DNA from: a virus
DNA: 44,018 nt
IMG/VR virus record: IMGVR_UViG_3300049460_000211
Location: 1-44,018 of that record
Strand: one strand, 5' to 3'
A program made the translations under genes and the position numbers. Under the pieces are notes generated by a model, which saw only the letters and a program-made list of their open reading frames with translations, had not been told where the DNA came from and made no database searches. This document shows, piece by piece, positions 11,859-34,894 of this stretch. The first letter of the stretch is position 1, and each line of letters starts with the position of its first letter.

Positions 11859-13220
11859 TCAAAGATGGACTCGGTCAATTTCTCCGTCAGCGAATCCGTT
11901 ATACACAGGGAATCTAATCTGGCCTCCGGGTACGCTTGGCGGATAAGCTCTAACCTGGATCAGTTTGCCGTCGAACATCTCTGGATGTTTACGTGCATTG
12001 ATTCGTGTTTCTCTGTCAAATCCCGTTCCAACCTTTCCAACCATTTTTCCTGAAGCATCGTATAGATACAAAGCTCCCATGCTGTCTTTAGGATTTCCCT
12101 TAATATCGATTTCCTGCTGCTGACCTTGGGCTCTCAAATTATATGTCACATAGTTTTTAACTTTGTAACGTACTGATTCTGTTTCAGGCTGTGCATAGTC
12201 AGCCACAATCAAGCCTTCGCCTTTATCTCCTTTGATCTTATCGAGATACTTGTTGATGTTCTCGACACCGTGTTCTAGATGAGGTGCGAACATTACTTCG
12301 CTATTTCCAAAGTCCTTCTCAAACTTTTTCAAATACTCAATCTTATCTTTATACGTAGCAAGATCGGGATTCTTGACATCGATAAGCACAGCTCTAACGG
12401 GGCCTTTCTCGGCTTGAGTTGCGATTGCACGAGGCGCAAGCGAATTCAGAATACCCGAAACAGTTGGGTGTGATTCTGTCTCAGACTTGGCCAGTCCGGT
12501 ATGAATCAATTCAACGGCAAACTGATTACCGACATAATCAGGCATTTGTTTTGCAAGATGAGGTAATTGAGATGAACGTTCTGGGTATCCGCCCTTAACA
12601 CTCTCTCTACGTGAGTGAAATGTAAGAGAAGCGTCAGGCTGAACTGTCAAAATGAAATGAGCACCGTCCCATTTCTTTGATGCAACTGGATGTTCAAGCT
12701 TGGTCCAATCGCCTTCAACGTATTTGTGACGTTGGTAGTTTTCAGCTGAAGCTTGTTTTTGAATTTGACTCAGATATGGATTGACGCCTTCGACAAATAG
12801 CTGACTTCCAAGTGGACCGATTCCACGAAACGTTTGAATTTCAGCACGAATCTCTTCAGGCGTACGGCTATCGATAAGATTACCAATCGTTCCGTATTTC
12901 TCTTTTAGATGCCTTGCTTGTGCAAGCATCGTCGTAGCTGTGGATTCATCGAATCGGCCATAATGTCCTTTGACCAGGTTGTCACGAAGATTCTCCCAAC
13001 CAGCTGATTCAACAGCTTCAGGTGAGTGGAACCCCTGTTCTGCCATATGTTTTGCAGCCATACCTGCTACAGAACGCTGAATAGGTCTAGAAAAAAGAGT
13101 CACCGCTGTAAGCCATTTATACAGTTCCTTTTCATCGCCCTTAGACAAGTCAAAGCCAAGCCCCTCAGGGCTAGCTGGTTCCTTAAGTTCGGTTGCTACT
13201 TTTTCTAGGTACTTGTTCAT
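11859..13220 (-). CDS. Tagged ATP-dependent DNA ligase with an N-terminal HhH-GPD-like domain
   Basis: This 453-residue protein begins with the tag MNKYLEKVA. Residues 30-148 resemble a helix-hairpin-helix base-excision-repair fold (YGRFDESTATTMLAQA, then YGTIGNLID, then FRGIGPLGSQLFVEGV), without the catalytic lysine of endonuclease III. The ligase core follows: motif I KKWDGAHF with nucleophile K183, motif IV EGLIVAD and motif V YKVKNY. An OB-fold domain ends the protein (MGALYLYDASGKMVGKVGTGF). This matches the nucleotidyltransferase-OB layout of LigD-type ligases, which seal nicks with ATP. It is last in an operon with a LigD-like phosphoesterase and a helicase, and its start overlaps the previous stop (TGATG). 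The fusion and the tag are both unusual. A linker at about 147-157 carries NPYLSQIQKQAS, a possible protease site. Confidence 0.88.
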   Translation of the reverse strand: MNKYLEKVATELKEPASPEGLGFDLSKGDEKELYKWLTAVTLFSRPIQRSVAGMAAKHMAEQGFHSPEAVESAGWENLRDNLVKGHYGRFDESTATTMLAQARHLKEKYGTIGNLIDSRTPEEIRAEIQTFRGIGPLGSQLFVEGVNPYLSQIQKQASAENYQRHKYVEGDWTKLEHPVASKKWDGAHFILTVQPDASLTFHSRRESVKGGYPERSSQLPHLAKQMPDYVGNQFAVELIHTGLAKSETESHPTVSGILNSLAPRAIATQAEKGPVRAVLIDVKNPDLATYKDKIEYLKKFEKDFGNSEVMFAPHLEHGVENINKYLDKIKGDKGEGLIVADYAQPETESVRYKVKNYVTYNLRAQGQQQEIDIKGNPKDSMGALYLYDASGKMVGKVGTGFDRETRINARKHPEMFDGKLIQVRAYPPSVPGGQIRFPVYNGFADGEIDRVHL

Positions 13221-13438
13221 CAGTGATCTCTTTGTTTGATAGCTGCAACAGCAGCCTCAAATTTAGCCCTGTGTTGTTTTTCTTCTGGTAACGCAAACTT
13301 CAACGCTGCGACGAGTTTCGGATTTCTGGCTTTCTTCAATTCTTCGGAGTACTTCTTCACATCATCGTTTTCGTCTTTTTCATTCTTCTCTGCCGTAGCT
13401 AGGTCAGAAGCAATTTTGGTTAGGTATTTATTAGTCAT
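13220..13438 (-). CDS. Tagged small helical protein, 72 aa
   Basis: It starts MTNKYLTKIASDL, a variant of the shared tag. The rest is highly charged and helical (EKNEKDENDDVKKYSEELKK, then KFALPEEKQHRAKFEAAVAA), with no membrane segment. The start overlaps the helicase stop (ATGACTAA) and the stop overlaps the ligase start (TGATG), so all three are translationally coupled. It could be an adaptor between helicase and ligase or simply a packaged small protein. No family is recognised. Confidence 0.75.
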   Translation of the reverse strand: MTNKYLTKIASDLATAEKNEKDENDDVKKYSEELKKARNPKLVAALKFALPEEKQHRAKFEAAVAAIKQRDH

Positions 13439-14888
13439 CTTTCTTCATCAAATCTTTAACTTCGTCAAACAGGTCCTGCTTCGTATCAGAATTCTCTGAC
13501 AGATACTTGTCGATACTGTACGGCGTCTTACCCCAAAGCGGCTTAGGATGTACGCTGTGAAAATGCTCAACTTCTACTTTGCGTTCTTCTTTGGGTAAAT
13601 GGTCATGGCTTCCGAAACGAACTGCACGGCCAACTACTTGATTGATTTTGCTCTTGTTAAAGTGAGGCTCAAGAATTTGTACACGCTTGGTGCCTTTACT
13701 GTCAAGTCCTTCTGAACCAGACGAAGAGATCAACAGAATCTTCTTCTTACCGGAATTGTACTGCTTAACTAATTCATCCTTCTCTTTTCGTGACAACGAA
13801 CCATCATAAATAGCATGATCGATCTTTAATTCTTGCAGTCGTTTTGAATAATCCTTCAGACCTGCATCGAGATAGTTTGAATACACGAGAGCCTTGAAGT
13901 TCTTATCCGTCTTCAGACCGTCCTGGAGGCTCGCTACGGCCTTCTGGATCTTAGGTGAGTACTCACCCTTGCCATCAGCCTTGAGGTGCTTGTAGCCGTT
14001 GGAAACCTGTCTCACGCCTGTCGAGAAGGCATTGAGACTCGACTTTTCTTTCTTGTCCAACGGAAGGTTGTGACGAATCTTCATTCTGAGCAGGAACGGA
14101 ATTTTACCTTCAGTAAACTTGTAATACTTCAACTGTTCCGGGGACATTTCTACATCCACGTTCTTTTCAGTCTTGGAAGGGAAATGATCTTTAGCTTCAG
14201 GATCATCCTTGCTATCGTAATAGCTCACATACCGCTGAAGCGCTTCTTTAAGTTCCTTACGACGGTCAAGTGTTTTAACAGCTTCAGGTTTAGCACCAAG
14301 AAGCCGTTCTTTAAACCCAGGCTTGACAATTTCGTCCTTAGTGTAACGCTCTTCCATCTTCTTAGAATCTTCAGGAAGAACATTGTCATTAGCAGCGATG
14401 TTAACGAGCGCTGAAATATCAGACAGCTTATTGTAGTTACCCGTAGCGGTAGCTAGAAGACGTCGATCCGCTCCGCTGATAATGTCACGAAGCTCTTTGG
14501 TACGTTTAGTATTCGTATTGCGAAGTCTGTGAGCCTCGTCGGCAACTACGATCGAGTAATCGTTCTTGCGAAGATTATGAGCTTCGTTTACTGCCTTCTC
14601 GTAGCTCATGACGTCAAGCCTATTCTTGTCAAGGTTGATCTTGTGCTTGAGCAATTCCTTGTCAACGTTAGTAACAAGGCTCGCCGGGGCAATAACCAAC
14701 GCTCGTTTCTTCGGATTTTCGTTCTGGTAATGTTCCACAGCTTTAAGGAACGTTTTTGTCTTGCCACTACCAAGGCTATGATGAAGGACAACGCCTTTCT
14801 CTTTTTCAAGATGTTCAAGTGCGTCAATCTGGTTTGGCCGAAGGTCGCTTTTCTGTTTCCGGGCTATTTTTTCTAGATACTTATTCAT
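13431..14888 (-). CDS. Tagged SF2 (SNF2/NPH-I-like) helicase
   Basis: This 485-residue protein starts with MNKYLEKIA. It has all core helicase motifs: Q-like LRPNQIDAL at 16-24, Walker A HSLGSGKTKT with K43, Walker B DEAH at 117-120, motif III ATATG at 146-150, motif V SSSGSEGLDSKG and motif VI QVVGRAVRFGSHDHLP. The GRAVRxxSHxxLP form resembles poxvirus NPH-I and D6-type ATPases as well as phage SNF2-like helicases. It probably translocates on or remodels double-stranded DNA using ATP. The tag predicts entry into the prohead. It is followed by the small tagged gene and ligase in an overlapping operon. No obvious leftward promoter lies directly upstream, so it is probably read from the promoter before the phosphoesterase gene. 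Confidence 0.9.
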   Translation of the reverse strand: MNKYLEKIARKQKSDLRPNQIDALEHLEKEKGVVLHHSLGSGKTKTFLKAVEHYQNENPKKRALVIAPASLVTNVDKELLKHKINLDKNRLDVMSYEKAVNEAHNLRKNDYSIVVADEAHRLRNTNTKRTKELRDIISGADRRLLATATGNYNKLSDISALVNIAANDNVLPEDSKKMEERYTKDEIVKPGFKERLLGAKPEAVKTLDRRKELKEALQRYVSYYDSKDDPEAKDHFPSKTEKNVDVEMSPEQLKYYKFTEGKIPFLLRMKIRHNLPLDKKEKSSLNAFSTGVRQVSNGYKHLKADGKGEYSPKIQKAVASLQDGLKTDKNFKALVYSNYLDAGLKDYSKRLQELKIDHAIYDGSLSRKEKDELVKQYNSGKKKILLISSSGSEGLDSKGTKRVQILEPHFNKSKINQVVGRAVRFGSHDHLPKEERKVEVEHFHSVHPKPLWGKTPYSIDKYLSENSDTKQDLFDEVKDLMKKDD

Positions 14889-14905
14889 TTGCCTATATGC
14901 TAAAT

Positions 14906-14914
14906 TGGTATAAG
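14906..14914 (+). promoter_or_regulatory. Early-type promoter on the plus strand, TGGTATAAG
   Basis: TAAATTGGTATAAGTAATG is the only copy of the early-type element on the plus strand. It points at the 27-residue gene at 14940 and lies antisense to the leader of the helicase gene. Confidence 0.75.
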
Positions 14915-14939
14915 TAATGTACTAAACCTGGAGGTTATC

Positions 14940-15023
14940 ATGTCACTACTTCAAATTCTATTACATCATCCTATAGATGTAATAATAACGATTGCTATAT
15001 TGGTATTAATATGCTGGAATTAA
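14940..15023 (+). CDS. Tiny hydrophobic peptide, 27 aa
   Basis: The frame reads MSLLQILLHHPIDVIITIAI and then LVLICWN. A strong ribosome binding site (GGAGG) lies seven bases upstream, an early-type promoter 26 bases before that, and an intrinsic terminator eight bases after the stop. This complete set of signals argues that the gene is real although it is very short. Residues 10-26 would form one membrane helix. Such small peptides in phages sometimes target host membrane proteins, but no role can be assigned. Confidence 0.65.
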   Translation: MSLLQILLHHPIDVIITIAILVLICWN

Positions 15024-16288
15024 TCCTTGAGAACATCGGTTAACGCCGACGATGTTCTTTTTAGATGAGCTGAAAGAGGGTTAACCCCTAGTTTGTAAGC
15101 TCTATTTTTTAACTGTGAAATACGACCTTCAGATTCCACTCCAGCTTTAATCGGTTTCTTGATAAATTGATTATTCAACATATCAACCACTTTCTTACCG
15201 TACTTGTTATTAGCCACCTTTTTACTAGCCATAAGATTCTTGGCTGTATTTAAACTACCCGCAGCGGGGTCGATAGCAAAGCTTGCAACTGCGCCCGTCA
15301 AACCTGGTTTTGCAGTAAGATGTCCCGGTACAAAATGCTTACCCTCTGGCTTTGCACCTTTCGTAATATTGGTTGCAATATTGGAAAGCAACGGATGGGT
15401 TTTGTCTTTCCATAACTTAGCCACATCATCGGCTTTACTCATAACATGGTCAAGTGAAGGTAGACCGAGATGTTTGCTGACATGGTTATGAACTGCTTGT
15501 ACCACAGGGTCTCTATGCAAATCGTATTTTTTTAGATCGTTGAACCGACCTTGCGTAAGCATTCTAACAGCTACTCGTTGACGAGGAGTTGCATGGGCAG
15601 TAAGTCCACCTACGGCACGACCTAGATCATGCATTGACTTATGAGCCACGGAGATATCTGGCAGAGTTGCGCCAAGTGCGGTACGCAGCGCTCTAGCCTT
15701 GATGCTATTATCTACGACACCGCGAGCGCCCTGGGCAAACGAATTGGCCAGATAGCGTGACACACGACGTTTTCCCAAAGCCACATTTGTAGCTACATTT
15801 TGAAGTAAGTGAGTAGCGATTGCACCGCCGATAAACGATGCTTGCTTGTCCATACCTTCTTCTATTTTCTTAAGGTAAGGGTTCTGACTTTTACCCATTC
15901 CCGTAATGTTCCTGAAAATCCATGATTTTTCATTTTCTTTAGTCGGAGATTTCTTAAGCAGGAACTTCTGACCATCTTTGGTGAATATAACCAGCGAGGT
16001 TTCTGTACTGTGTGGAGCTACCATTGCTTTTCTAACCCAATCTAAATGAGTAACGCCAGCGCCATACTGACCAGTAGGGATAACCACTTTCTTGCTTAGC
16101 GCATATGCTCTGTCATGAACAGGCTGTTCGTAGACTGCAATGATTTCACCTGGACCAGGCATGTCTTTGAGCGTTGCGAAGGAGTACGCCTTATCTCCAT
16201 GAACTAGTCGGAGATCGTAGTGCAGGCCCATTACATCAGCTTCGTGACGTTGCCGGGTGAAAAGGAATTCATCATTGGGTTGTAACAT
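15020..16288 (-). CDS. LigD-type 3-prime-phosphoesterase with a long helical C-terminal extension
   Basis: Residues 1-130 match the phosphoesterase module of bacterial LigD, which removes 3-prime phosphates and trims 3-prime ribonucleotides at DNA ends. The metal and phosphate ligands are visible: H15 in QRHEA, H23, D25 and R27 in GLHYDLRL, and H58 in QPVHDRA. VVIPTGQYGAGVTHLDW at about 67-84 matches the IPEGEYGAGT signature. The remaining 290 residues are helical, basic and of unknown family. They start with NPYLKKIEEGMDKQAS, which resembles both the shared tag and a linker in the ligase. The gene heads the helicase-ligase operon, so it supplies in a separate protein the activity that LigD carries in one chain. 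The last four bases overlap the convergent 27-residue gene. Confidence 0.85.
   Translation of the reverse strand: MLQPNDEFLFTRQRHEADVMGLHYDLRLVHGDKAYSFATLKDMPGPGEIIAVYEQPVHDRAYALSKKVVIPTGQYGAGVTHLDWVRKAMVAPHSTETSLVIFTKDGQKFLLKKSPTKENEKSWIFRNITGMGKSQNPYLKKIEEGMDKQASFIGGAIATHLLQNVATNVALGKRRVSRYLANSFAQGARGVVDNSIKARALRTALGATLPDISVAHKSMHDLGRAVGGLTAHATPRQRVAVRMLTQGRFNDLKKYDLHRDPVVQAVHNHVSKHLGLPSLDHVMSKADDVAKLWKDKTHPLLSNIATNITKGAKPEGKHFVPGHLTAKPGLTGAVASFAIDPAAGSLNTAKNLMASKKVANNKYGKKVVDMLNNQFIKKPIKAGVESEGRISQLKNRAYKLGVNPLSAHLKRTSSALTDVLKD
15031..15062 (+). terminator. Intrinsic terminator of the 27-residue gene
   Basis: GAACATCG (15031-15038) pairs with CGATGTTC (15050-15057), followed by five T residues. 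It lies inside the 3-prime end of the convergent phosphoesterase gene, so one sequence serves as coding DNA and as a terminator. Confidence 0.75.
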
Positions 16289-18412: not shown

Positions 18413-20239
18413 ATGACTGAACAATATACAACGCCTGGAGCTATCAAGCTCAAATCCGAACTTCCAACTCAGGAAGCGCGGGACAATTTTGATCTGTATC
18501 GCCCTTTAGATAAAAAAGGTATTTCGGATCTGGTCAACGTCCTGCTTAAACATGGCGGTCCTAATTCTCACGAATCCATAAATGATCTCGGTAAAAAGTT
18601 CTTCAACAAGGCTACTGAGATTGGCGCAACCACGCCCTTAACTGACTACATCAACGAATCTGACGAACGCCAAGCAATCATCGATGAATTCCAGACAAAG
18701 GTTAATCAGATTTTCTCTAGGAAGCTGGCTAAAAAAGAAGAAAACGAAGCTCTTGGTAACCTAACTGGAGAGTACAATGGGAAGATTGAAAAACAAAATA
18801 TAGATCACCTTATGTCACGAGGCTCTACCGCAGCAAAGATGGCTAAGACGGGTGCTCGTGGTAATCCTACTCAGCTTGCAACTGGTACTTCAACGCCTCT
18901 TATGTCGATTAACTTGAAGGGCGAACTAGTACCGTTCGTTATTAAGCATTCTTTTGCCCAAGGTATGACTCCAGCTGAACTGATAGCGATGTCGTACATG
19001 GGACGTGGATCTACGGTTCTGTCTCAACTATCAACGGCTCTACCGGGCGCTCTATTTAAAGAGCTGTCCCCAACTGTATTCCACGAAGTTATCACTATTG
19101 ATGATTGCGGAACCACCAATGGCATTCTTCTTCCGATATCTGACAAAAAAGGTGCTATCGGTAGATACGAAGCGGGCACTAACACGCTTATCGACGAAGC
19201 TTACTACAAAGAAAAGGTTGCCTCTGGAGCCAAGAGCATAAAGGTTCGTAGTGTCCTTACCTGCGAAGCTCATCAAGGCGTTTGCAAGAAATGCTACGGT
19301 CTTATGGGGAATGGAAAACCTGCTGAAATTGGCGAAAACGTCGGCGTTATCGCAGCACAATCTGTGTCAGAAGTTCTTACGCAGTCTATGCTTGCAACTA
19401 AGCACAAAGCATCGGTAGGCGCTCGTAAAGGCAATTCGTATGAACAGGCTTCTAATCTTCTACGCAATCCGGCTGAAAACTTCAAGGACGAAGCTACTAT
19501 TTCGGGTATTAACGGAACTGTCTCTTTAATCAAGCAAACTCCTCTTGGTGACCATCAGGTATTTGTTAATGAACAGTCCCATTTCGTTCCGCGCATCCAA
19601 AACCTAAAAGTTTCAGTAGGTGATAAGGTTCTGAAAGGCGATTCGCTTTCTACTGGCGTTGTTAATCCCCGTAAACTCGTAGGTCTTAAAGGCCTTGGGG
19701 CAGGAAGACTTTATATGAGTCATGAACTTCGTGGTATTTACGGTTCAGATCTAGATCCTCGTCACTTCGAAATGATCGCAAAGAATCTGGTCAAGCACGT
19801 TGAAGTCGTAGATCCAGGTGAAACTGGCTTCCTACCCGGTCAAAAGATTGATGTAAACACGGTTCGTAAATACTTCTCTGATACACATGGTGACGTGCCT
19901 CTCGAAAACGCAGAAGGTAAGCTTCTGGCCAAAGGCGTGCATGAGCTTACAGCAGGTACGCTGCTTGACGGTAACCACATCCAGGAATTGCGTGAACGTG
20001 GTGTCACAAAGGTTCCAGTAGCATCGACCGGACTGAAAGTAATCCCTATCGTTCCTGGTCTTAAGACGGCTAAGTTGCTTGATGATAACTGGGTTTCGAA
20101 ACTGTCGTTCTCTGGTCTTAAGAATACGCTTCGTGAAAGCGCTGCAGTTGGTGCAGAATCAGATCTTCATAGCACTGAGCCTATTACCCCGTACATTATC
20201 GGTAATGAATTTGGCGAAGGTGAAGGAGGACAGTACTAA
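18413..20239 (+). CDS. RNA polymerase beta-prime, C-terminal part
   Basis: This 608-residue protein continues beta-prime from before the bridge helix to the C-terminus. KTGARGNPTQL at 145-155 matches SGARGSAAQI. The bridge-helix region is about 184-222. The second zinc site is complete: C232 in TIDDCGT, then C284, C291 and C294 in LTCEAHQGVCKKCYG. GVIAAQSVSEVLTQSMLATKH at 311-331 is the trigger-loop region, keeping the equivalent of H936 (H331). Residues matching E. coli M932 and R933 are leucine and alanine. The C-terminal part has HELRGIYGSDLDPRHFEMIA, and KLSFSGLKNTLRESAAVGAE matches the SFQETTRVLTEAAVAG segment. It acts with the beta fusion and the middle beta-prime protein. Its stop overlaps the transglycosylase start (TAATG). 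Confidence 0.92.
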   Translation: MTEQYTTPGAIKLKSELPTQEARDNFDLYRPLDKKGISDLVNVLLKHGGPNSHESINDLGKKFFNKATEIGATTPLTDYINESDERQAIIDEFQTKVNQIFSRKLAKKEENEALGNLTGEYNGKIEKQNIDHLMSRGSTAAKMAKTGARGNPTQLATGTSTPLMSINLKGELVPFVIKHSFAQGMTPAELIAMSYMGRGSTVLSQLSTALPGALFKELSPTVFHEVITIDDCGTTNGILLPISDKKGAIGRYEAGTNTLIDEAYYKEKVASGAKSIKVRSVLTCEAHQGVCKKCYGLMGNGKPAEIGENVGVIAAQSVSEVLTQSMLATKHKASVGARKGNSYEQASNLLRNPAENFKDEATISGINGTVSLIKQTPLGDHQVFVNEQSHFVPRIQNLKVSVGDKVLKGDSLSTGVVNPRKLVGLKGLGAGRLYMSHELRGIYGSDLDPRHFEMIAKNLVKHVEVVDPGETGFLPGQKIDVNTVRKYFSDTHGDVPLENAEGKLLAKGVHELTAGTLLDGNHIQELRERGVTKVPVASTGLKVIPIVPGLKTAKLLDDNWVSKLSFSGLKNTLRESAAVGAESDLHSTEPITPYIIGNEFGEGEGGQY

Positions 20240-23789: not shown

Positions 23790-23934
23790 ATACCTAGAAA
23801 AAATAGCTGCTAGAAAGAAAGGAGGCCAGCTCCAGGTACGGGCTGGTCAGAAGCCCCTTAAGGTTCCGAAGAGTAAGCCTTTCATGAGTCTCAAGACTAA
23901 AATAGTGAAGACCAGTAAAGGTCGTAAAGGATAA
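23782..23934 (+). CDS. Tagged highly basic peptide, 50 aa
   Basis: The frame starts MNKYLEKIAARKKGGQL inside the last three codons of the previous gene and ends at TAA 23932-23934. After the tag, the 41-residue remainder holds about 14 Lys and Arg and almost no acidic residues. It would bind DNA or RNA nonspecifically. T4 and other phages pack small basic internal proteins with their DNA, and this peptide fits that picture. The exact tag at its N-terminus is the main evidence that this short frame is translated. A late-type promoter for the next gene lies inside it. Confidence 0.75.
   Translation: MNKYLEKIAARKKGGQLQVRAGQKPLKVPKSKPFMSLKTKIVKTSKGRKG
23896..23906 (+). promoter_or_regulatory. 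Late-type promoter inside a gene, ACTAAAATAGT
   Basis: The TAAAATA core (23898-23904) is followed by G and lies 34 bases before the 23939 gene, which has an AAAGGA ribosome binding site. It sits within the small tagged gene. Confidence 0.5.
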
Positions 23935-25064: not shown

Positions 25065-25604
25065 ATGTTAGAAAAAGTTAAAGAGCTAGGTCTTGAAAAA
25101 TTCGCTGGCAATGAAGATCTCGCCGACCAATTCGTAGCAGGCTTCATCACTCATGTTTTGATGGAAAAAGAAGCACTTCTGGAAAAAGAAGCGGCTAACC
25201 CACGTTCAGAGCAAGACATCAGCCGTGAATTTACGGACAATATCGCTGGCCAACTTGGTAAGGGTATTGGCGGTATTGTTTCTCATGGTGCAGTTGGTGG
25301 TGCGATGATTGGTTACCGTTTCGTAACTGACCAATTTAGATACCAACGCTTCCTTAAGTCCTTGCAACATGCTATTGCTTCGTCATCATTCCTTCGTGAT
25401 CAGAACCCTGCTAAGGTTGAAAAGTATGCCGATACGATTTACAGATTTGCTCCGCTGGTTGCAGTGGATCCGAATCTGCTACAATCGATCCTTACGAACG
25501 CAGTTCAAGGTGACGGTATCGATCTGATGACTATTAAGAGTCTTACGGATCTTGAAGGCCGCTATCGTGACAACGGTTCGGTTAATCCTAAAGCGTTTGT
25601 TTAA
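25065..25604 (+). CDS. Head-cluster protein, 179 aa, with a Gly-rich hydrophobic segment
   Basis: An AAAGGACA ribosome binding site precedes the start. The N-terminal 65 residues are helical and acidic, with MEKEALLEKEAANP carrying two K-x-A motifs. Residues 66-87 (GKGIGGIVSHGAVGGAMIGY) form a glycine-zipper segment. The C-terminal 90 residues form a helical domain (YQRFLKSLQHAIASSSFL, then ADTIYRFAPLVAVDPNLLQS). It could be an internal or ejection protein. It is followed by a tagged gene after two bases. Confidence 0.65.
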   Translation: MLEKVKELGLEKFAGNEDLADQFVAGFITHVLMEKEALLEKEAANPRSEQDISREFTDNIAGQLGKGIGGIVSHGAVGGAMIGYRFVTDQFRYQRFLKSLQHAIASSSFLRDQNPAKVEKYADTIYRFAPLVAVDPNLLQSILTNAVQGDGIDLMTIKSLTDLEGRYRDNGSVNPKAFV

Positions 25605-25606: not shown

Positions 25607-25927
25607 ATGAATAAGTACCTAGAGAAAATTGCCAGTCTAAGTGAGTTCGGAAAGAGCTTCGCTAAAGGCTGGAAGAGAAGTTCAACAACCTCCAAGATTG
25701 GTCTAGGTATGTCTGCTACCGGTCTTGGGCTAGGTGTTGCGAATCTAGCCAATGGTATAGAGAGCAAACATCGAGGAAATCACATGGCGGATGTGGAAAG
25801 TAAATCTTTAGATCAATTGAAAGATATCGCAGAGGCTTTGAAGAAACGACAGAGCGTTAATGTTCACGTTAAGTTGCCCGAACAAGAGAAAGCTGCTGGT
25901 ACCCAAAACAAATACATTCGTATTTAA
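25607..25927 (+). CDS. Tagged glycine-zipper protein, 106 aa
   Basis: It begins MNKYLEKIASLSEF two bases after the previous stop, without its own clear ribosome binding site. A hydrophobic glycine-zipper helix (IGLGMSATGLGLGVANLANG) spans about 36-55. A helical part follows (SLDQLKDIAEALKKRQ) and the end is basic. The tag plus a membrane-active helix fits a packaged protein that could act on the host membrane during DNA entry. No family match is known to me. Confidence 0.75.
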   Translation: MNKYLEKIASLSEFGKSFAKGWKRSSTTSKIGLGMSATGLGLGVANLANGIESKHRGNHMADVESKSLDQLKDIAEALKKRQSVNVHVKLPEQEKAAGTQNKYIRI

Positions 25928-25953: not shown

Positions 25954-27459
25954 ATGCTAACAAAACTGATCGATACCTCTTCTTTTTACCAAGACGAACC
26001 CCAGGTTACGATTCTTGACAACAGAGACCTTACAGGCAGTCTCATCAAACAGGCTGCGGATTCTCGTATTCAACAATTCGCATCCAAAATCACTCCTATT
26101 CATGGAAAGACATATCTGCACATCCTCGCTATGGGCGCGGGTGAATTCTATGGTGCCAACCGTAACGCAGACTATTTCCCTGAATCGAATCTCATTGATT
26201 ATCACAATACCTTTGAGACTTCACCCGCCCATATCTTCCGCAACCACGTAAACAAGAACCCTGAAATTGCTATCGGGCGTGTTATCTATTCCGTTTATAA
26301 CGATAGAATGCATCGTGTTGAGCTTATTGCCGAACTGTGGAATGACAAGGCCCCTGACATCGTCGACAAGATCGAAAGCGGTGATTGGCCTAAGACTTCT
26401 ATGGCTTGCCGTACTCCATTCGACGTTTGCAGTATTTGCAGTAACAAGGCTAAGACTCGTGAAGAGTATTGTGAACACTTGAGCGAACAGCTTGGCAGAA
26501 TTTATCCAGATGGCCGCAAGGTTATGGCGTTGAATCTGGCTCCGCTTAGATTCTTCGATATCTCTATCGTATTCCGCCCTGCCGACGTAACGAGTTCTGT
26601 TCTACAGAAAGTTGCATCAACAGCTGAAGTTGTTGGTTCTGTAGATGAAGCCATGATGGCTGGCCTATCTGAAATTACGATGCACAAAGCCGCGTCGTTA
26701 AAGAAGCTATCAGAATTACTAAAAGAGGTCGATGGTGATGTTGTATCTGCTGATCCTAGTTTTGATAATCTTGTATCACGAGTTTCTGATCCGAAAGGTG
26801 ACGTTATCGACGTTCTTAGAAACTATAAGCTTAATGAAGTTCTTAGCACCTTGGGTCATCTTGGTATTAGCCCTTCATTGGGTTTTCTGGCAGAACTGAT
26901 TGGTCGCAAGATCCTCGGTGACGAAGCTAAGGGCATCGGCCCTATGGCTGCTGCTTATGTGAATAAATCAGGTACTTCTGCACTGATGGACTTTGATCGT
27001 GACTTCGGTGAAATTACAGAACCTAATATAGGAATTGTGCATGCGCTTCTTCCACACATGGAAGATTCTTCGTATCTGCCGGATTATGTAGAAAGCCGTG
27101 TAGCTATGAATAAGCAAGCATCGATGTATGGATATATGCAAGGTACAAACGTAGGGTACAGCGGAAATGGTCCTCATATCGAACCGACGGTTTATGAAAG
27201 GTTCAGAGAACAGAATCTGGCTAACGCTCCACAAAAGTCTGAACTCTTGCGTGTGTTCAATGCCATCGTAGCAATCGGCGGTGCTGCTCTCGCTGCAAAG
27301 TGGTTCATTACTCAAGTAATTGAGAAGAAAATGAAAGAGCAGGAATTGAACAAGCTTTCAGATGGTGTTAAAATACCTTTAGTTAAATCTGCTTCTGACT
27401 ACAAATTGACTTACAAATTAGCCAAGTCGGCAATGCTAAAGTTGATTCAGAATAAATAG
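25954..27459 (+). CDS. Capsid maturation (prohead) protease, 501 aa
   Basis: Residues 50-180 resemble HK97-type prohead serine proteases. H93 or H98 in AHIFRNHVNKNP is the candidate catalytic histidine. IGRVIYSVYND to RVELIAEL is the GRV-strand region, and IESGDWPKTSMACR with S149 is the candidate nucleophile. A cysteine group follows (C152, C159, C162, C173, with H175) and may bind zinc. The C-terminal 300 residues are helical with K-x-A motifs (QKVASTAEV, HKAASLK, NKQASMYG, VKSASDYK) and a hydrophobic helix near 421-438. That region may be a scaffold-like part that is removed. The enzyme would cleave head proteins after assembly. Confidence 0.7.
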   Translation: MLTKLIDTSSFYQDEPQVTILDNRDLTGSLIKQAADSRIQQFASKITPIHGKTYLHILAMGAGEFYGANRNADYFPESNLIDYHNTFETSPAHIFRNHVNKNPEIAIGRVIYSVYNDRMHRVELIAELWNDKAPDIVDKIESGDWPKTSMACRTPFDVCSICSNKAKTREEYCEHLSEQLGRIYPDGRKVMALNLAPLRFFDISIVFRPADVTSSVLQKVASTAEVVGSVDEAMMAGLSEITMHKAASLKKLSELLKEVDGDVVSADPSFDNLVSRVSDPKGDVIDVLRNYKLNEVLSTLGHLGISPSLGFLAELIGRKILGDEAKGIGPMAAAYVNKSGTSALMDFDRDFGEITEPNIGIVHALLPHMEDSSYLPDYVESRVAMNKQASMYGYMQGTNVGYSGNGPHIEPTVYERFREQNLANAPQKSELLRVFNAIVAIGGAALAAKWFITQVIEKKMKEQELNKLSDGVKIPLVKSASDYKLTYKLAKSAMLKLIQNK

Positions 27460-27521: not shown

Positions 27522-28739
27522 ATGATGAATCTAAGTCTTGATGATCTCATCCAGGATCTTGAAAAAAGCGCCGGTCTTACTAAGTCCGCCAGCGAAAAGT
27601 CAGAGAAGGATGAAAAGAAAGATGAAGAAAAAGCCGAGACGGCAGTTTGTAAAGCGGATGAAGAACTAGATACTGCTTGCAAAGCCGACCAAGCTGCTAA
27701 GAAAGAAAATGCCGTCGAACAAAAAGACGACAAGAAGAAAGACGACGAACAAACTAAGGAAGCAGCTGCAAAAGGTGCCGCCTTGGCTAAAGAAGTAATG
27801 CAAAAAGTTGCATCCATTAAACTTGATCAAGTTAATACAGAGGATACTATGAACAAACAAGCTGCTGACGCAGGTAAGGCTCTGGCCGAAGCTCTTCTTG
27901 AGAAGCTGGCTTCAGTCGGTGACCAAAACACCATGAATGGCATTGCCAGTGGTGTTCCGAACAAGACCCAGGTAGACCTGGCTGCTCAAGTAGCAGAACA
28001 AGATAGCATTATCCAAAACCAACCGGGTACGGATGGTCGTGGTAATGGTGGTACTATCAACCAAATTTTCGATTCAATCGTTTCAGACGCTATGGCTCAT
28101 GGTGCTGCTCCGGTTGATCAAAACCCCGCTGCTGGCGTTGCTAAGGAAGAAGGCGCACAAGTTGCTGCTCAGACTCCTAACCAAGGTGGTGTTACGGGTT
28201 GGGTCGATGCTGACCAGCAAGAAAAGGCAGCAGCTGTTTCTGAACTCGTTAGCCAAGGCTTCGACTTCGACGCCGCTGTGAACCTGGTTAAAGAAGCTGC
28301 GTTCGAACTCGAACAAGAAGAAGAAACGCAAGTCAAGCAAGCCGCTTTCGACGCTTTCATCGAACAAGGCTATGACTTCGAATCAGCTGTTGAACTGACA
28401 AAGATCGCTTCGGTTGCCGGTATGGCTGCTCGTGCTGGCCGCAAGGTAAGCGTTGCTGCAGGTCGTACTGCACAAGCTGCAAAGAAGACTGCTAATGGCG
28501 TAGCGTTTGACGCTAACCGCGTTAAGGCTCAAGCTACCCAAGGCTCGTTCAAGGCTCTGGCTAACAACAAGGCTGTCCAACTAGGTGCTGGTGGCGCTGC
28601 TGCCGGTGCAGCCGCTGGTGCATATGCTGTTGGCCGTGAAAAGAAGGCTGCTCTTGACATGCTCATCGCTAACGGCGTTGACTTCGACAGCGCAATCGAA
28701 ATGGTTAACGCTAAATCGACTCAACTGTACGGCTATTAA
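27522..28739 (+). CDS. Acidic head-core protein with three GxDF helical repeats, 405 aa
   Basis: The N-terminal 100 residues are extremely charged and Lys/Glu/Asp/Ala-rich, as in scaffold or core proteins. Many K-x-A motifs follow (LTKSASEK, QKVASIK, NKQAADAG, EKLASVG). Three copies of a repeat of about 26 residues occur at 28221-28302, 28329-28413 and 28639-28720. Each has the form A-A-x3-[LF]-x3-G-[FYV]-DF-[DE]-x-A-[VI]-x-[LM] (for example SQGFDFDAAVNLV and IEQGYDFESAVELT). A Gly/Ala-rich segment lies before the last repeat. It probably acts in capsid assembly as a core or scaffold component. The repeats look a little like UBA-type three-helix folds, but I cannot confirm that. Confidence 0.65.
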   Translation: MMNLSLDDLIQDLEKSAGLTKSASEKSEKDEKKDEEKAETAVCKADEELDTACKADQAAKKENAVEQKDDKKKDDEQTKEAAAKGAALAKEVMQKVASIKLDQVNTEDTMNKQAADAGKALAEALLEKLASVGDQNTMNGIASGVPNKTQVDLAAQVAEQDSIIQNQPGTDGRGNGGTINQIFDSIVSDAMAHGAAPVDQNPAAGVAKEEGAQVAAQTPNQGGVTGWVDADQQEKAAAVSELVSQGFDFDAAVNLVKEAAFELEQEEETQVKQAAFDAFIEQGYDFESAVELTKIASVAGMAARAGRKVSVAAGRTAQAAKKTANGVAFDANRVKAQATQGSFKALANNKAVQLGAGGAAAGAAAGAYAVGREKKAALDMLIANGVDFDSAIEMVNAKSTQLYGY

Positions 28740-28814: not shown

Positions 28815-29225
28815 TTGAATAAATATTTGGAAAAAATTGCAGGAATGGCTTTTCCGAATTTGGCATCCAGGGGAGTCGGCGCAAGACTTGGCAAAGTTGC
28901 GAAACCATCTAAAGTTGTTTCACCAGGTTCAAAATTAGTTCGCGGGGATAAAACTCTTCTTAGCGCAGCATTACATAAAGCTGCTCAAGAACAGGAATCT
29001 AATTGGAAACACGACGCTATTGATACTGGAATAATCGGAGGTATCGGTGCAGGTACAGGTTTTGGAGTGCAAAAACTCTCTCCCAAAATTATAGGGGAAG
29101 GTGCAGGACATATGCATAATGCAAAACTTTTGGCATTGACTGGCGCTACAAGTTTGGCTGCTGATTTCGCCGGTGTTAAACTAAATAAAGCGATCAACAA
29201 ACATGTCGAAAAACAAGTATCTTGA
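28815..29225 (+). CDS. Tagged protein with a TTG start, 136 aa
   Basis: The frame opens with TTG at 28815, preceded by GGAGAAA, and reads MNKYLEKIAGMAF. The tag itself settles the start because no ATG is available there. A Gly-rich hydrophobic segment lies at about 70-88 (DTGIIGGIGAGTGFGVQKL) and a second at 109-120 (ALTGATSLAADFAG). The rest is basic. Its last 23 bases overlap the start of the next tagged gene. It fits the group of tagged, membrane-active small proteins. Confidence 0.75.
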   Translation: MNKYLEKIAGMAFPNLASRGVGARLGKVAKPSKVVSPGSKLVRGDKTLLSAALHKAAQEQESNWKHDAIDTGIIGGIGAGTGFGVQKLSPKIIGEGAGHMHNAKLLALTGATSLAADFAGVKLNKAINKHVEKQVS

Positions 29226-29655
29226 AAAGGTAGCTGAGTCGTATTCGATGGCTCCGCATCCCGATGATAAGAGTTGGTATGGTGTCGATAAGCTCCATTT
29301 GAATCGTGAAGAGTTTGCAAAACTTGAAAATGCGGAAGGTATCCATCCGGTTCAAACTGCAGCGTGGGCTCTAGGTGGAGCTACGCTAGGCGGAACGGCA
29401 GGCCATTTTTATACGAAGGCAACTATGCTTCCGTATTTGGCTAGTACCGCTGCAAATGCGCATTTGGATCCGTCCATTGCAACCCATGCATCAAGACTGA
29501 CAAATATTGGAAAGTCACGGCTTTTCAAGAATAAGTTTCTCGGTGCAGTGCTTGGACTAGGCCTCGGTGCCCGTATCGCTAACACCAAAGATTACAATAG
29601 ACGACTCGAAAATGCTGGATTCAGCAGAGTCCACAGTGAAGACGAAAATGACTAA
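29203..29655 (+). CDS. Tagged protein, 150 aa
   Basis: It starts MSKNKYLEKVAESY, with the tag shifted by two residues, and overlaps the previous gene by 23 bases. The middle is hydrophobic and Gly-rich (AWALGGATLGGTAGHFYTKA at about 52-71 and GAVLGLGLGARIANT at about 113-127). Both stretches could enter a membrane. The C-terminal end is acidic. The stop overlaps the start of the next gene (ATGACTAA). The 23-base overlap between two tagged genes implies tight coupling. Confidence 0.75.
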   Translation: MSKNKYLEKVAESYSMAPHPDDKSWYGVDKLHLNREEFAKLENAEGIHPVQTAAWALGGATLGGTAGHFYTKATMLPYLASTAANAHLDPSIATHASRLTNIGKSRLFKNKFLGAVLGLGLGARIANTKDYNRRLENAGFSRVHSEDEND

Positions 29656-30244
29656 ACTATCCTCAATTCTTATGCAACACGCGGAAGACGTTCGTCTTTC
29701 GACCCCGGAAGCAGTTGCTGTAGAACATCTTAAACAAGCTGGCTATAGCGATAAAGACGCACGATATCAAGTAGCTCAGCACATCATGGAAAAAGAAGCC
29801 GCTTCAGCTTTGGCCATGAAAGGCATCGACCACGAAGACGCTGTGAAATTGGTCAAGGCTGCTAACCTTAATATTTCAGAACTTACGAGCTTTGCACTTC
29901 CAGATGAATCGAACCCTACTGTAGAACTCCTGCAGAAGGCTGCTGAATATATCGAAGCTCTTGAGACACAAATCGCTGGCCTTAAGGGCGATATCGAAAA
30001 ACAAGCTTCGGTACATCAGTCAGAACTCGATCACATCGAAGCTGTGGCTCATATGCCTGAACAGCTTAACAAAATTGCTTCTGCTGCTCAGTTTACCCAA
30101 GAAGATCTCGCTGAACTACAAAGCGTTTCACCCGAGCTTCTGATGAAGGTTGCATCGGCTATCGAAGAACCCTGGGGTATGGGCAATGGCGTAGGTGTAG
30201 CACGTCCTAAGACTGATCCCCTTCTTGAATTCATGCTAAGTTAA
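29648..30244 (+). CDS. Head-cluster helical protein, 198 aa, with GxDxxxA repeats
   Basis: I choose ATG 29648 (MTKLSSILMQHAEDV) because it overlaps the previous stop as ATGACTAA, the same junction seen elsewhere in this genome. A start 27 codons upstream is possible but lies inside the previous gene. The protein contains two copies of the repeat also found in the 27522 protein (LKQAGYSDKDARYQV and LAMKGIDHEDAVKLV). It also has many K-x-A motifs (EKEAASAL, VKAANL, QKAAEY, EKQASVHQ, NKIASAAQ, MKVASAIE). A coiled-coil segment lies around 104-135. It is probably a companion of the core protein. Confidence 0.65.
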   Translation: MTKLSSILMQHAEDVRLSTPEAVAVEHLKQAGYSDKDARYQVAQHIMEKEAASALAMKGIDHEDAVKLVKAANLNISELTSFALPDESNPTVELLQKAAEYIEALETQIAGLKGDIEKQASVHQSELDHIEAVAHMPEQLNKIASAAQFTQEDLAELQSVSPELLMKVASAIEEPWGMGNGVGVARPKTDPLLEFMLS

Positions 30245-30246: not shown

Positions 30247-30726
30247 ATGACAAACAAATACATTGAAAAAATCGCAAGCCTTGCCGATATCGCATCGAAG
30301 GCAGTGGGTGTTGCAAAGCAGGTTCCGGGGGTACTTCGCACGGCTAGTGGTACAGAACTGCGGGGTCTTCAGTCGCAGCAAAGCCGTGCTATGAATCTTG
30401 CAGGACGTGCAGAGGGCAAAGCTAAAACTTTCGGTACTCAAGCTGCTATGAAACCTACTTCGAACCAAGCTGGTTATGCCTATACCAAGGACTTCCAGAA
30501 CAAGGTTCACGCTACACCACGTATGCAAACCATTGCCGATCACAATGCATCCCGATCTGAAAAGCTTAAGGCTCACGCTGCTGGTATGCAAGGAAGTATT
30601 GATAGTACTGAACTCGCTACTCGCCGCGCTCGTTCTACGGTCGGTAAAGTAGGTGCTGGTGTGGCTGTTGCAGGTATTGGTGCTGCTGCTCTTAGCAAGA
30701 AGGATGATTCACAAGGTTATTATTAA
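30247..30726 (+). CDS. Tagged protein, 159 aa
   Basis: It starts MTNKYIEKIASLAD two bases after the previous stop. The body is basic and rich in Ala, Gln, Thr and Gly, predicted helical. One hydrophobic Gly/Ala helix lies near the C-terminus (VGAGVAVAGIGAAALSKK). The net charge is strongly positive, which suits contact with packaged DNA. No ribosome binding site of its own is seen, so coupled translation is likely. Confidence 0.75.
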   Translation: MTNKYIEKIASLADIASKAVGVAKQVPGVLRTASGTELRGLQSQQSRAMNLAGRAEGKAKTFGTQAAMKPTSNQAGYAYTKDFQNKVHATPRMQTIADHNASRSEKLKAHAAGMQGSIDSTELATRRARSTVGKVGAGVAVAGIGAAALSKKDDSQGYY

Positions 30727-30727: not shown

Positions 30728-30988
30728 ATGTCAAATAGATATCTTGAAAAAATCGCCATTCTTGGAATGATATCTGGTTACGCCGGTTCTAAAAAAGGCG
30801 ATAAACTTGGGGGAACCCTTGCAGGTGGAGTTGCTGGAACGGCAACAGGATTACTTGCAATGGCTGCAGGTGGACGTGTCGCTGGTCCTGCTGGGGTAAT
30901 AGCAGGTGGTTTGGCGGGAGAAGCGGCTGGTGGATATTACGCTGGTAAACTATATTCTCATCTGAAACACCGCAGCGAAAAGAATTAA
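30728..30988 (+). CDS. Tagged glycine-zipper protein, 86 aa
   Basis: ATG 30728 gives MSNRYLEKIAILGM, so the tag decides the start. The body is a continuous Gly/Ala zipper from about residue 27 to 73 (KLGGTLAGGVAGTATGLLAM, then AGPAGVIAGGLAGEAAGGYY). Two membrane helices with GxxxG spacing can be drawn. The C-terminus is basic. Proteins with this pattern can oligomerise in membranes and form pores. In a tagged protein this suggests a role in DNA passage through the host envelope, which is inference. Confidence 0.75.
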   Translation: MSNRYLEKIAILGMISGYAGSKKGDKLGGTLAGGVAGTATGLLAMAAGGRVAGPAGVIAGGLAGEAAGGYYAGKLYSHLKHRSEKN

Positions 30989-31557: not shown

Positions 31558-32451
31558 ATGAGCGCATATTCGACAGAAACCGTAAACGTACAATTCCTGA
31601 ATCAATCTTTCCTCGACAAGATTGACCAAGGTCACACTAAAGAAGCTTCAGCTGCTATGTCAGCTTTCGTACGTCAGAAGCTTCGTGAAGACGGCTTTAC
31701 CCGTAAGATTCTTACCCCGGTTCAAATCACAGCTTCAGAGCTGGATCGCCAACTGACGGAAGAGCCGACGGTTATCGTTGAAAAAGAACCGGATTCGGTT
31801 GCAGCTACTGCTCCATTCCTGGGCCGTCCGGAAATTCGTTACTGGAAAACTTCACGTTATCCGGTGACTTTCCAAAAGATCATGTCGCAAGATTTCCGCA
31901 AGAGCAAGTTCGAACTCGCTACGTATCGTACCGACATTCGCACGATCCTGCAGGAAAACAGCGTTAAGGATATCCAAGAGCAAGAAGACGTAAACTTTTA
32001 CAACAACATTCTGTCAATCGCTACGGCGAACAGCAATGTTCACACCATCGGTGGCGGCTTCACGAAAGCTAACCTGATGGCTGGTATTAAGTTCATGCTT
32101 CTGAATAAGCTGCCGGTTGGTTGTATCCTTATGACGCAATCGATGTATGCTGATCTGCTGACTTTTGCCGCAACTGACGTGGGTTCGCCTGCCGCTTCGG
32201 ATCTGTTCCGTGGTGAAGGTACGCTCGATACGTTCTTCGGTTACAAGATCATCACGACGAACAAGGCTAACATCCTCCCGACGAACCAAGCACTTGTGTT
32301 TGCTCCGCAGAACTACCTAGGTCAGTTCTATGAGTTGCAAGCTCCTACGGTCTTCCTGAAGACTGAAGCAGACATTATCGAATTCCACGCATACGAAGCT
32401 GTAGGCGCAGGTATCGGTAACGTGAACGGTGCAGTTGTTCTAAACTTCTAA
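31558..32451 (+). CDS. Major capsid protein
   Basis: This 297-residue protein has the size and order of a small HK97-fold capsid protein: N-terminal arm (1-50), a spine-like region with charged strands (EIRYWKTSRYPVTFQKIMSQ) and a peripheral domain (EEQEDVNFYNNILSI-like helix around 140). The final strands are YLGQFYELQAPTVFLKTEAD and VNGAVVLNF. GYKIITTNKANIL is typical of a capsid A-domain strand. It follows the decoration-like gene and precedes a strong terminator. The N-terminal arm carries FLDKIDQGHTKEASAAM, which resembles the tag and the K-x-A-S motif, so it may be cleaved near residue 30. No scaffold delta domain is seen. Confidence 0.75.
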   Translation: MSAYSTETVNVQFLNQSFLDKIDQGHTKEASAAMSAFVRQKLREDGFTRKILTPVQITASELDRQLTEEPTVIVEKEPDSVAATAPFLGRPEIRYWKTSRYPVTFQKIMSQDFRKSKFELATYRTDIRTILQENSVKDIQEQEDVNFYNNILSIATANSNVHTIGGGFTKANLMAGIKFMLLNKLPVGCILMTQSMYADLLTFAATDVGSPAASDLFRGEGTLDTFFGYKIITTNKANILPTNQALVFAPQNYLGQFYELQAPTVFLKTEADIIEFHAYEAVGAGIGNVNGAVVLNF

Positions 32452-32938: not shown

Positions 32939-32944
32939 GGTCTC

Positions 32945-33267: not shown

Positions 33268-33288
33268 ATTTCATTGGTTCGTCTTCTC

Positions 33289-33313
33289 TGTTAAAATACG
33301 TCTGTAAATTACA
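33289..33313 (+). promoter_or_regulatory. Late-type promoter followed by a 5-prime leader hairpin
   Basis: TGTTAAAATACG has its TAAAATA core at 33292-33298. Next comes the inverted repeat CTGTAAATTACAG (33302-33314), which would form a small hairpin at the start of the mRNA. The 33324 gene follows. Confidence 0.6.
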
Positions 33314-33323
33314 GGAAACCAAC

Positions 33324-33632
33324 ATGGCAGGTAAATTTAATAGATACCTATCCAAGACTATTAACATGCTAGATTCGGTACATGGCAAAACGTCCAAAGA
33401 ATGGGCTACGAAGGCACGTGTGCTTAATGAAGCTAAAGTCACAGGTCTAACGGCTACCCGCGCCTCGCGTAAGGCAAAGGTCAGCAATGGCAGGACATTT
33501 CAGAATCGTGTAAAACTTGGTGTTGGTGGAGGTGTTGCTTTGACTGGAGGTCTTCTAGGCTTGCATAAATACATGCAATATCAGAACAATAAGATTCTGG
33601 CCAGAATTGACAAAATGTACAATAAGCAATAA
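33324..33632 (+). CDS. Divergent tagged protein, 102 aa
   Basis: ATG 33324 has an AGGAAAC ribosome binding site. The N-terminus MAGKFNRYLSKTINML keeps the N-[KR]-Y-L-x-K core of the tag but ends differently. The body is basic (KVTGLTATRASRKAKVSNGR). One glycine-rich membrane helix lies at about 73-88 (LGVGGGVALTGGLLGL). It resembles the tagged glycine-zipper proteins of the head cluster and may belong to the same functional class. Its tag is the weakest of the set. Confidence 0.65.
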   Translation: MAGKFNRYLSKTINMLDSVHGKTSKEWATKARVLNEAKVTGLTATRASRKAKVSNGRTFQNRVKLGVGGGVALTGGLLGLHKYMQYQNNKILARIDKMYNKQ

Positions 33633-33661
33633 ACTACAAACTCTTAAGAAAGGAATGACAA

Positions 33662-34108: not shown

Positions 34109-34112
34109 TTAA

Positions 34113-34562: not shown

Positions 34563-34582
34563 AGTCTAACGACTTCATAACG

Positions 34583-34606
34583 AGGCCTCCTTCGGGAGGC
34601 TTTTGC
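34583..34606 (+). terminator. Intrinsic terminator after the connector gene
   Basis: GCCTCC and GGAGGC form a stem with a TTCG tetraloop, followed by TTTTGCTTTT. The T-rich tail runs straight into the late-type promoter at 34609. Confidence 0.85.
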
Positions 34607-34608
34607 TT

Positions 34609-34618
34609 TTAAAATAAC
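34609..34618 (+). promoter_or_regulatory. Late-type promoter adjoining a start codon, TTAAAATAAC
   Basis: The TAAAATA core (34610-34616) ends five bases before ATG 34622, without a Shine-Dalgarno sequence. It is one of three such close placements. Confidence 0.5.
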
Positions 34619-34621
34619 ACC

Positions 34622-34894
34622 ATGAATAAGTATCTTGAAAAAATAGCCGAACTTTCTGATGACAGTGCATTAGGAATCGTTATGGACCTGACTCACAAGC
34701 ACTTCGATTCAAGCATGAAGCCCGATCACGCATTTTTTCCAAAAAACCGTCAAACCAAAGCTGCAACTACTATCGCTGCGCAGAGATTGGTAGCGGCTAT
34801 AGAAAGCAGATTTGGAAAAATCAAACCTGGCGATCATCACAAACTTACAACTCCTCGTAAAGTAGCCGAGTACTTTAAGAACGACACTCCTTAA
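34622..34894 (+). CDS. Tagged protein, 90 aa
   Basis: It begins MNKYLEKIAELSDD. Unlike most tagged proteins here it has no hydrophobic segment. The body is soluble, helical and rich in Lys and His (SSMKPDHAFFPKNRQTKAAT, then AAQRLVAAIESRFGKIKPGD). It sits between connector and neck genes, away from the head cluster. No ribosome binding site is visible and a late-type promoter almost touches the start codon. A packaged soluble protein is a fair guess, but no function is known. Confidence 0.75.
   Translation: MNKYLEKIAELSDDSALGIVMDLTHKHFDSSMKPDHAFFPKNRQTKAATTIAAQRLVAAIESRFGKIKPGDHHKLTTPRKVAEYFKNDTP

Follow-up and report, generated by a model that had tools for sequence, protein, structure and literature searches.

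In the capsid-targeting sequence of phage T4, residues 4 and 7 act in targeting and residues 8 and 10 in processing, according to the available part of PMC9026906, and in phage SPN3US gp53 and gp54 have a leader in common, their first 15 residues being identical, according to that of PMC5694885. Here we describe a peptide, MNKYLEKIA with its variants (hereafter designated the tag), which begins ten proteins encoded by the IMG/VR virus record IMGVR_UViG_3300049460_000211 (44,018 bases, analyzed as a whole and designated the window; position 1 is its first letter). Judging from the sequences, the tag is probably a capsid-targeting propeptide that is cut after its K-x-A by a prohead protease resembling T4 gp21. 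A first-pass annotation of the window had likened the tag to the T4 sequence, given there as MKTYQEFIAE (IPII and IPIII do begin MKTYQEFIAEA), and had proposed that the tag directs proteins into the prohead; this proposal gains support from the confinement of the tag within the genomes, from a site shared with untagged head proteins, from the conservation of Y4 and K7, and from homologues, themselves untagged, detected in virions of the related phage Arash.

All ten open reading frames (ORFs) named in the annotation, which had reported the tag on at least ten proteins, do begin with a variant of MNKYLEKIA. On the minus strand, MNKYLEKVA (13194–13220) precedes an ATP-dependent DNA ligase-like ORF (11859–13220; phrog_114, E 3.4e-16), MTNKYLTKIA (13409–13438) a 72-residue ORF (13220–13438), and MNKYLEKIA (14862–14888) an SNF2/DEAD helicase ORF (13431–14888; PF00176, E 1.6e-19). 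On the plus strand, MNKYLEKIA is found at 23782–23808 (50-residue basic ORF, 23782–23934), 25607–25633 (106-residue ORF, 25607–25927), 28815–28841 (136-residue ORF with a TTG start codon, 28815–29225) and 34622–34648 (90-residue ORF, 34622–34894), MSKNKYLEKVA at 29203–29235 (150-residue ORF, 29203–29655), MTNKYIEKIA at 30247–30276 (159-residue ORF, 30247–30726), and MSNRYLEKIA at 30728–30757 (86-residue glycine-rich ORF, 30728–30988). The start positions first assigned to the plus-strand copies are correct, whereas for the three minus-strand ORFs the low end had been given; their true start codons are at 13220 (ligase), 13438 (72-residue protein) and 14888 (helicase). The annotation had also listed a divergent form at 33324–33632 (+), which starts MAGKFNRYLSK (MAGKFNRYLSKTINML) and whose orthologues keep FN[RK]YLSKT; it has N-R-Y-L-S-K in common with the tag, but T-I instead of I-A after the K, and, lacking K-x-A, was not counted as an eleventh copy.

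The number of copies was set against chance. The pattern N[KR]Y[LIV]xK[IVL] has one further match in the six frames of the window, inside the ligase (INKYLDKIK, 12254), and a degenerate DNA pattern of the tag matched the window 10 times, against 0 for the reversed-pattern control, which gave 0 matches in 29 further records too. Scanning the start codons in the analyzed stretches of 21 records revealed 143 places with at least six of the eight letters of NKYLEKIA and, in the same scan, none for the control words (the reversed word and three other reorderings). The annotation had rightly held that the peptide rather than the DNA is conserved: the five exact NKYLEKIA copies of the window have five DNA spellings, with a mean identity of 0.83 versus 0.80 for independently drawn codons, and identities of 0.27 and 0.25 in their flanks. 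The resemblance among the spellings is thus no greater than that of codons drawn independently, and the flanks are random: selection acts on the peptide.

The search of the rest of the genome and of related phages suggested in the annotation found the tag in 157 ORFs of 24 records including the window, N-terminally in 149. These records carry 26 labels in the clustering below, two of them being in two pieces; G006, with the same ten tags as the window, was left out of the ORF count, and the records are partly dependent, near-identical entries being shared by G001 and G002, G014 and G023, and G015 and G026. Searched with the capsid protein, IMG/VR yielded 30 distinct loci; the relatives that have names are Salmonella phage Arash (55%) and three Vibrio phages (50%). 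A search of genome contigs and plasmids turned up no relative of this protein. The viral collection was also searched with the DNA pattern of the tag, the capsid not being used, and yielded 54 stretches on 30 contigs, 12 known from the capsid search and 18 new. The new contigs have 1 to 11 broad-pattern matches each (control, none); that G012–G029 all match is by construction, as they were chosen with a narrower form of the pattern, whereas the match numbers are not. Relatives of both the capsid protein (55–80% identity) and the protease are encoded by 14 of the 18, and the remaining four are fragments of 36–47 kb with tagged ORFs resembling those of family members.

Within the genomes, the tag is confined. 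Whole-record DNA scans (records up to 193 kb), with a pattern that misses some tag variants, located it only around the genes for the portal, RNA polymerase, protease, scaffold and capsid, namely at 30.6–53.5 of 181 kb in G001, 124.9–141.4 of 170 kb in G005, 36.8–77.0 of 185 kb in G015, 101.5–129.1 of 168 kb in G024, and 61.2–76.9 of 193 kb in G028. For 15 records the capsid gene could be placed, and in their analyzed stretches no tag is more than 30 kb from that gene, except for an internal NKYLGKLS in an 806-residue protein of G001 (cluster 25), 113 kb away, which was dropped as a chance match. The whole-record DNA scan gave 0 tags in the more distant records G008–G011, and no N-[KR]-Y-type tag was found in the whole of Arash and D69 or in 40 kb each of G008 and G009. 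With five of the eight letters allowed, there is one match in Arash and three in D69, none with N-x-Y, and G008 has a single loose look-alike, MQAYVEKVAAK. Leaders in G008 and G009 with an early K-[LIVMQE]-A site (e.g. MNYLDAFIDELTKLAADDD) were considered and, by eye, form no one shared tag; N-terminal leaders other than the tag, ending in LxK[LI]A, such as MNYLDAFIDELTKLAADDD and MNAYEALLAQLEKLANVK, were observed in G008 (36292–74683) and G009. Pseudanabaena phage PA-SR01 encodes a related helicase, whose annotated start has no tag.

As with the T4 capsid-targeting sequence, this short N-terminal peptide stands on unrelated bodies, the 149 tags being distributed over 59 clusters of tag-masked bodies (60 at blastp E 1e-4, one of them the chance match). 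The bodies of the ten window proteins, which the annotation had described as dissimilar, fall into nine clusters with the tag masked; the 72-residue body and the helicase have a common single-linkage cluster, probably because other records fuse the two. Twelve non-redundant cases entered as N-terminal have their start codon within a longer open frame with a K-x-A just upstream, and are for that reason readable as internal too. The bodies include an SNF2-type helicase, an ATP-dependent DNA ligase, a PARP-like protein (PF00644, E 3e-4, below the cut-off), glycine-zipper proteins and a large number of small ones. The glycine zipper PF05433 was detected in five of 44 proteins scanned (representatives of 43 clusters and the 33324 ORF; helicase and ligase not included). 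Tagged ADP-ribosyltransferase-like proteins were observed at L127:1446–2114 and L167:11169–12479, with an HGTS stretch seen by eye and PF00644 in the second only. For cluster 17, an ADP-ribosyltransferase is a tentative reading from the by-eye HGTS and the PF00644 match below cut-off in another tagged protein; neither its member nor Arash Gp96 had a Pfam match, and there was no PDB match. Such tagged proteins call T4 Alt to mind.

Conservation within the tag was measured by a leave-one-out count over distinct starts: for each position, a start was included if five or more of the remaining seven letters agreed, so that the counted residue was not presupposed. N was found in 137 of 142 starts, K3 in 117 of 139, Y4 in 137 of 142, L in 134 of 139, E in 110 of 141, K7 in 136 of 141, I in 114 of 141 and A in 131 of 144. 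The following residue is varied (S 32, A 23, E 19 and G 15 of 137), and the putative cut is placed after A because conservation ends there. A T4-like cut after glutamate at (L/I)-x-E would not be general, since I-A-E is present in 19 of 137 starts.

The K-x-A of the tag recurs in proteins without the tag. The motif phi-x-K-x-A was noticed near the N-termini of untagged head proteins, with flanks that differ among phages, and its occurrences were counted against shuffles of each protein in the head block and in the rest of the genome, using annotated genes for Arash and a simple longest-ORF rule for D69, G001 and G005. The head block contained 38 sites versus 5.9 expected in Arash (z 13.4), 36 versus 6.9 in D69 (z 11.2) and, with tagged proteins included, 43 versus 13.4 in G001 (z 8.6) and 44 versus 9.4 in G005 (z 11.7), and in the rest of the genome the ratio was 1.00, 1.08, 1.06 and 1.46, respectively. 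When K was replaced, the counts were 0.6 to 1.5 times expectation for phi-x-R-x-A and 0.6 to 1.0 times for phi-x-E-x-A. Moreover, in an unbiased scan of residue pairs at offsets 1–4 (1,600 possible) from which tagged proteins had been removed, K-x-A ranked first both pooled (216 versus 104.8), followed by L-x-K and M-x-K, and in each of the four genomes, elsewhere in which it was not enriched (870 versus 921.9). The consensus around it is [L/M/I]-[E/V]-K-x-A-[S/A], which the L-E-K-I-A of the tag fits, and in this same scan no N-x-Y letters accompanied the other sites. In seven T4 core proteins, the same shuffle control recovered the known site of that phage, (L/I)-x-E (34 versus 16.3, z 5.0; z 1.6 in 21 tail and other proteins) and gave no excess of phi-x-K-x-A (4 versus 4.0).

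In the window, four untagged head proteins on the plus strand contain the site, namely two scaffold or core candidates at 23939–25039 (10 sites) and 27522–28739 (7 sites) and the proteins at 25065–25604 (4 sites) and 29567–30244 (6 sites). At the level of sequence, the motif that ends the tag also marks the scaffold candidates, the protease and the capsid protein, and this match between the second half of the tag and a site scattered through untagged head proteins is the new element here.

The prohead protease candidate (25954–27459, +; phrog_18299, head maturation protease, E 2e-6) has phi-x-K-x-A from residues 30, 217, 243, 385, 476 and 489. T4 gp21 (5jbl) is the best PDB match of its model (Foldseek rank 1, Z 8.5, 137 residues, 3.6 Å), followed by herpesvirus proteases with Z near 4. 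In an alignment of the window protein with 20 of 26 distinct relatives, close duplicates and one 1371-residue protein being left out, H98 and S149 are invariant, and we infer that they form the catalytic pair. Also invariant among these 21 homologues are K219 and A221, located in a low-confidence linker (202–266) behind the protease domain, where self-cleavage would be expected by analogy with phiKZ and SPN3US. The major capsid protein (31558–32451, +; phrog_2522, E 3.5e-13) has an N-terminal site, HTKEA, whose K28 is invariant in the window protein and 20 of 24 distinct relatives (one identical copy and three fragments left out), down to 28% identity. Its model (predicted local distance difference test score, pLDDT, 82) has the HK97 fold, with a helix at 6–23, a break, and a further helix that begins at K28. 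The alignment with HK97 chains begins at model residue 27 (3qpr, 3e8k), 31 or 38 in some cases and at 1 or 14 in others (2fs3, 1ohg, 8fqk), and that with encapsulins at about residue 19. On this model, a short capsid propeptide before K28–A30 is plausible.

Tags occur inside proteins as well. Tags were classed as internal when the six codons before them contained no start codon, and 13 such tags were found. For 11 of these, the 25 residues before the tag include a K-x-A (in one case the preceding tag itself, and G002 repeats G001); the two others include the chance match in G001. One 385-residue ORF of G016 contains three tags, and in G001, G002 and G007 the tagged helicase forms one protein with the phosphoesterase domain, both motifs being present where the two meet. 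In the window, an ORF at 15020–16288 (−) consists of a LigD-type phosphoesterase domain (PF13298, E 2.7e-6, below cut-off), the junction SQNPYLKKIEEGMDKQAS and an Arash-Gp100-like domain; this last domain, behind DKQAS, is preceded by the phosphoesterase domain and a tag-like NPYLKKIEE. Elsewhere the Gp100-like body follows the tag NKYLDKVA (G027), MEKQA alone (Arash Gp100) or a leader ending in LKKEA (D69). The four homologues have four different leaders, each ending in K-x-A, and the K is the first of the 24 invariant columns of their alignment. Tags at junctions would not be explained by a pure N-terminal signal, whereas they are by a cut site.

These junctions bear on the strongest alternative, in which the tag would serve for docking onto the scaffold, the portal or the virion RNA polymerase and would stay uncut, while its likeness to other K-x-A sites would be due to a shared binding surface. 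This would suit the absence of the N-x-Y half from the general site and the position of several tagged genes next to RNA polymerase genes. It leaves aside, however, that conservation ends right at the A, that K-x-A lies behind the protease domain and in the capsid N-terminus, much where the corresponding proteins of T4 and SPN3US are cut, and that K-x-A and the tag meet at domain junctions, and we consider it unlikely.

The virion proteome of Arash was compared with the bodies. According to the available part of PMC10585845, the Arash virion list comprises 116 proteins, and its authors allow that abundant enzymes may be carry-over. Two rows (xxxxx and Gp225.1), having no gene in the GenBank list, were omitted from our tests, and the coverage values were not used because a coverage of 100% stands beside only two unique peptides in some rows. 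Clear homologues in Arash exist for three tagged bodies; all three are untagged there and appear in that list by mass spectrometry: the helicase Gp217 (E 2e-124; 38 unique peptides, 1148 spectra), Gp96 (E 2e-13; 15 unique peptides, 816 spectra) and Gp100 (E 3e-9; 9 unique peptides, 471 spectra). As background, 114 of 251 Arash genes are represented in the virion proteome, and 45 of 251 by at least nine unique peptides. Weaker body homologues are Gp198 (E 7.6e-4, not in the list), Gp4 (E 0.005, in the list) and the D69 helicase (E 1.2e-5, 82 residues). All nine Arash proteins with at least four phi-x-K-x-A sites, two of them very long, are in the virion proteome.

That the helicase homologue enters Arash virions untagged would also agree with a tag serving as a cleavage site only, head entry proceeding through the bodies or their partners. 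The N-x-Y half would be needless for cutting, yet N and Y are each kept in 137 of 142 starts and are missing from the other sites in these phages, which makes this second alternative quite improbable. Divergence of the tagged proteins from a common ancestor, or a role of the tag at the level of DNA or translation, is scarcely credible: many of these proteins are small and clustered, but the helicase, ligase and glycine-zipper bodies have nothing in common, the codons vary like independent draws, and internal copies have no start codon nearby.

Several observations weigh against a propeptide that both targets and is cut. Arash and D69 lack the tag, and Arash packs Gp217 without it, so that the tag is not the sole way into the head; related cargo can get in by a different route, perhaps together with RNA polymerase. 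The association of an N-terminal site with virion detection in Arash depends on the cut-off among six combinations. With thresholds of at least 2, 5 and 9 unique peptides, p is 0.65, 0.20 and 0.50, respectively, when the site lies in the first 20 residues, and 0.085, 0.003 and 0.034 when it lies in the first 40. The rest of the G005 genome is itself enriched in the site (z 3.8), and the reversed motif A-x-K-phi is mildly raised (1.2 to 2.05 times), which indicates that part of the site excess stems from composition or a helix pattern. In T4, the reversed word E-x-(L/I) has z 1.0 in the core proteins but z 3.5 in the set of 21 others, tail proteins among them, and the shuffle null is therefore imperfect. 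Finally, the model of the protease is a weak one (pLDDT 62.5, with a Foldseek E of 0.1), and the structure match leaves the start of the mature part of the capsid protein undecided.

The tag, its confinement, the consensus and conservation of the site, and the tags at junctions are read directly from the sequences; docking, cleavage, the exact bond and ejection are what we infer from them. For the capsid-targeting propeptide, the following course is envisaged. Tagged proteins, once translated, would dock on the prohead core through the N-x-Y half, perhaps with K7. The shell would then close and the protease be activated, which would cut phi-x-K-x-A in the scaffold, the protease itself, the capsid protein and the tags, the L-E-K-I-A half being the presumed recognition site and the bond after A the presumed scissile one, though cleavage at K|x-A is possible. 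The scaffold candidates, the protease and the capsid protein have the same site without the N-x-Y half, and the fused domains that some members have, with tags at their junctions, could be separated inside the head. The cargo thus freed within the head would be ejected along with the DNA. Presumably, any protein acquiring the tag becomes head cargo, as the helicase, the ligase, the ADP-ribosyltransferase-like proteins and many small proteins, some of them with glycine zippers, would have done.

The window has further genes around these features. The phage encodes RNA polymerase beta and beta-prime (by Pfam), a portal homologous to that of Arash, the protease candidate and the capsid protein described above, and tail-like genes, for which sheath and tube are labels given by eye. 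The 878-residue sheath-like protein, so labelled by eye (36464–39100, +), is aligned with a 706-residue Arash protein from residue 446 onward only. RNA polymerase beta-prime is split between ORFs at 9727–10890 and 18413–20239 (+), with Pfam Rpb1 domains 1–2 and 5, which are separated by about 7.5 kb of genes mostly on the opposite strand; in Arash and D69, the first beta-prime part is matched by the far end of the beta ORF. A calcineurin-like metallophosphoesterase is encoded at 42134–42973 (−; PF00149, E 3e-11). The DNA ligase, the SNF2 helicase and the LigD-type 3'-phosphoesterase domain are neighbours at 11859–16288 (−), and this block is possibly an injected DNA end-repair kit.

More widely, the tag may be a movable module for both addressing and cutting, part of a polyprotein system that operates within the capsid: single proteins, or chains of several fused domains, would be brought into the head through N-x-Y-L-E-K-I-A and separated there by a protease whose site is based on K and A rather than on the glutamate of T4 and phiKZ. 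What the phage injects would then be a swappable kit, with enzymes for repair, effectors resembling ADP-ribosyltransferases and peptides active on membranes, a view that we regard as evenly poised between right and wrong. The tag would provide a sequence rule predicting which proteins are head cargo in this family of uncultured phages, whose records reach about 190 kb, and by which dozens of ORFs without known function become candidate injected proteins. It would also predict a new prohead-protease specificity, phi-x-K-x-A in place of the glutamate site, for which Arash is a cultured relative. No paper naming or describing the NKYLEKIA peptide was found in the literature searched.

Compared with the described systems, the tag most resembles the capsid-targeting sequence of T4 IPI, IPII, IPIII and Alt, which likewise comprises about ten N-terminal residues on otherwise different proteins, has Y at position 4 in IPII and IPIII (F in IPI), and ends in a prohead protease site also carried by the scaffold and capsid, as far as the available text of the T4 sources goes. 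It differs in that the T4 cut lies at (L/I)-x-E (I-A-E for IPII and IPIII), whereas the general site here appears to be phi-x-K-x-A, that few cargo proteins exist in T4 as against 59 body clusters over 24 records, and that tags here lie inside fused proteins too. The phages phiKZ and SPN3US (proteases gp175 and gp245) are similar in their virion RNA polymerase, ejected proteins, head propeptides and C-terminal self-cleavage of the protease, according to the available parts of PMC9026906, PMC5694885 and PMC10052503. In the same accounts, however, their cut follows glutamate (S/A-x-E, A-x-E), and of the N-terminal propeptides of SPN3US, two are 20 and 24 residues long and the others 111–254 (PMC10052503). 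The tag and its site point to another, independent set of components by which proteins may be brought into phage capsids. Genes homologous to the protease are annotated as capsid maturation protease in the actinophages Stormageddon and Pupper, and gp19 of Bacillus phage G is homologous to it, with 35% identity over query residues 62–228. No NKYLEKIA tag begins any of the 28 phage G proteins listed, but eight proteins from gp19 to gp27 contain 12 phi-x-K-x-A sites versus 3.7 expected, 7 of them in gp19. The phage G portal gp14 has MAKQAA at residue 16. From the sites in gp19 and this portal, phi-x-K-x-A may be common far beyond the tagged phage family.

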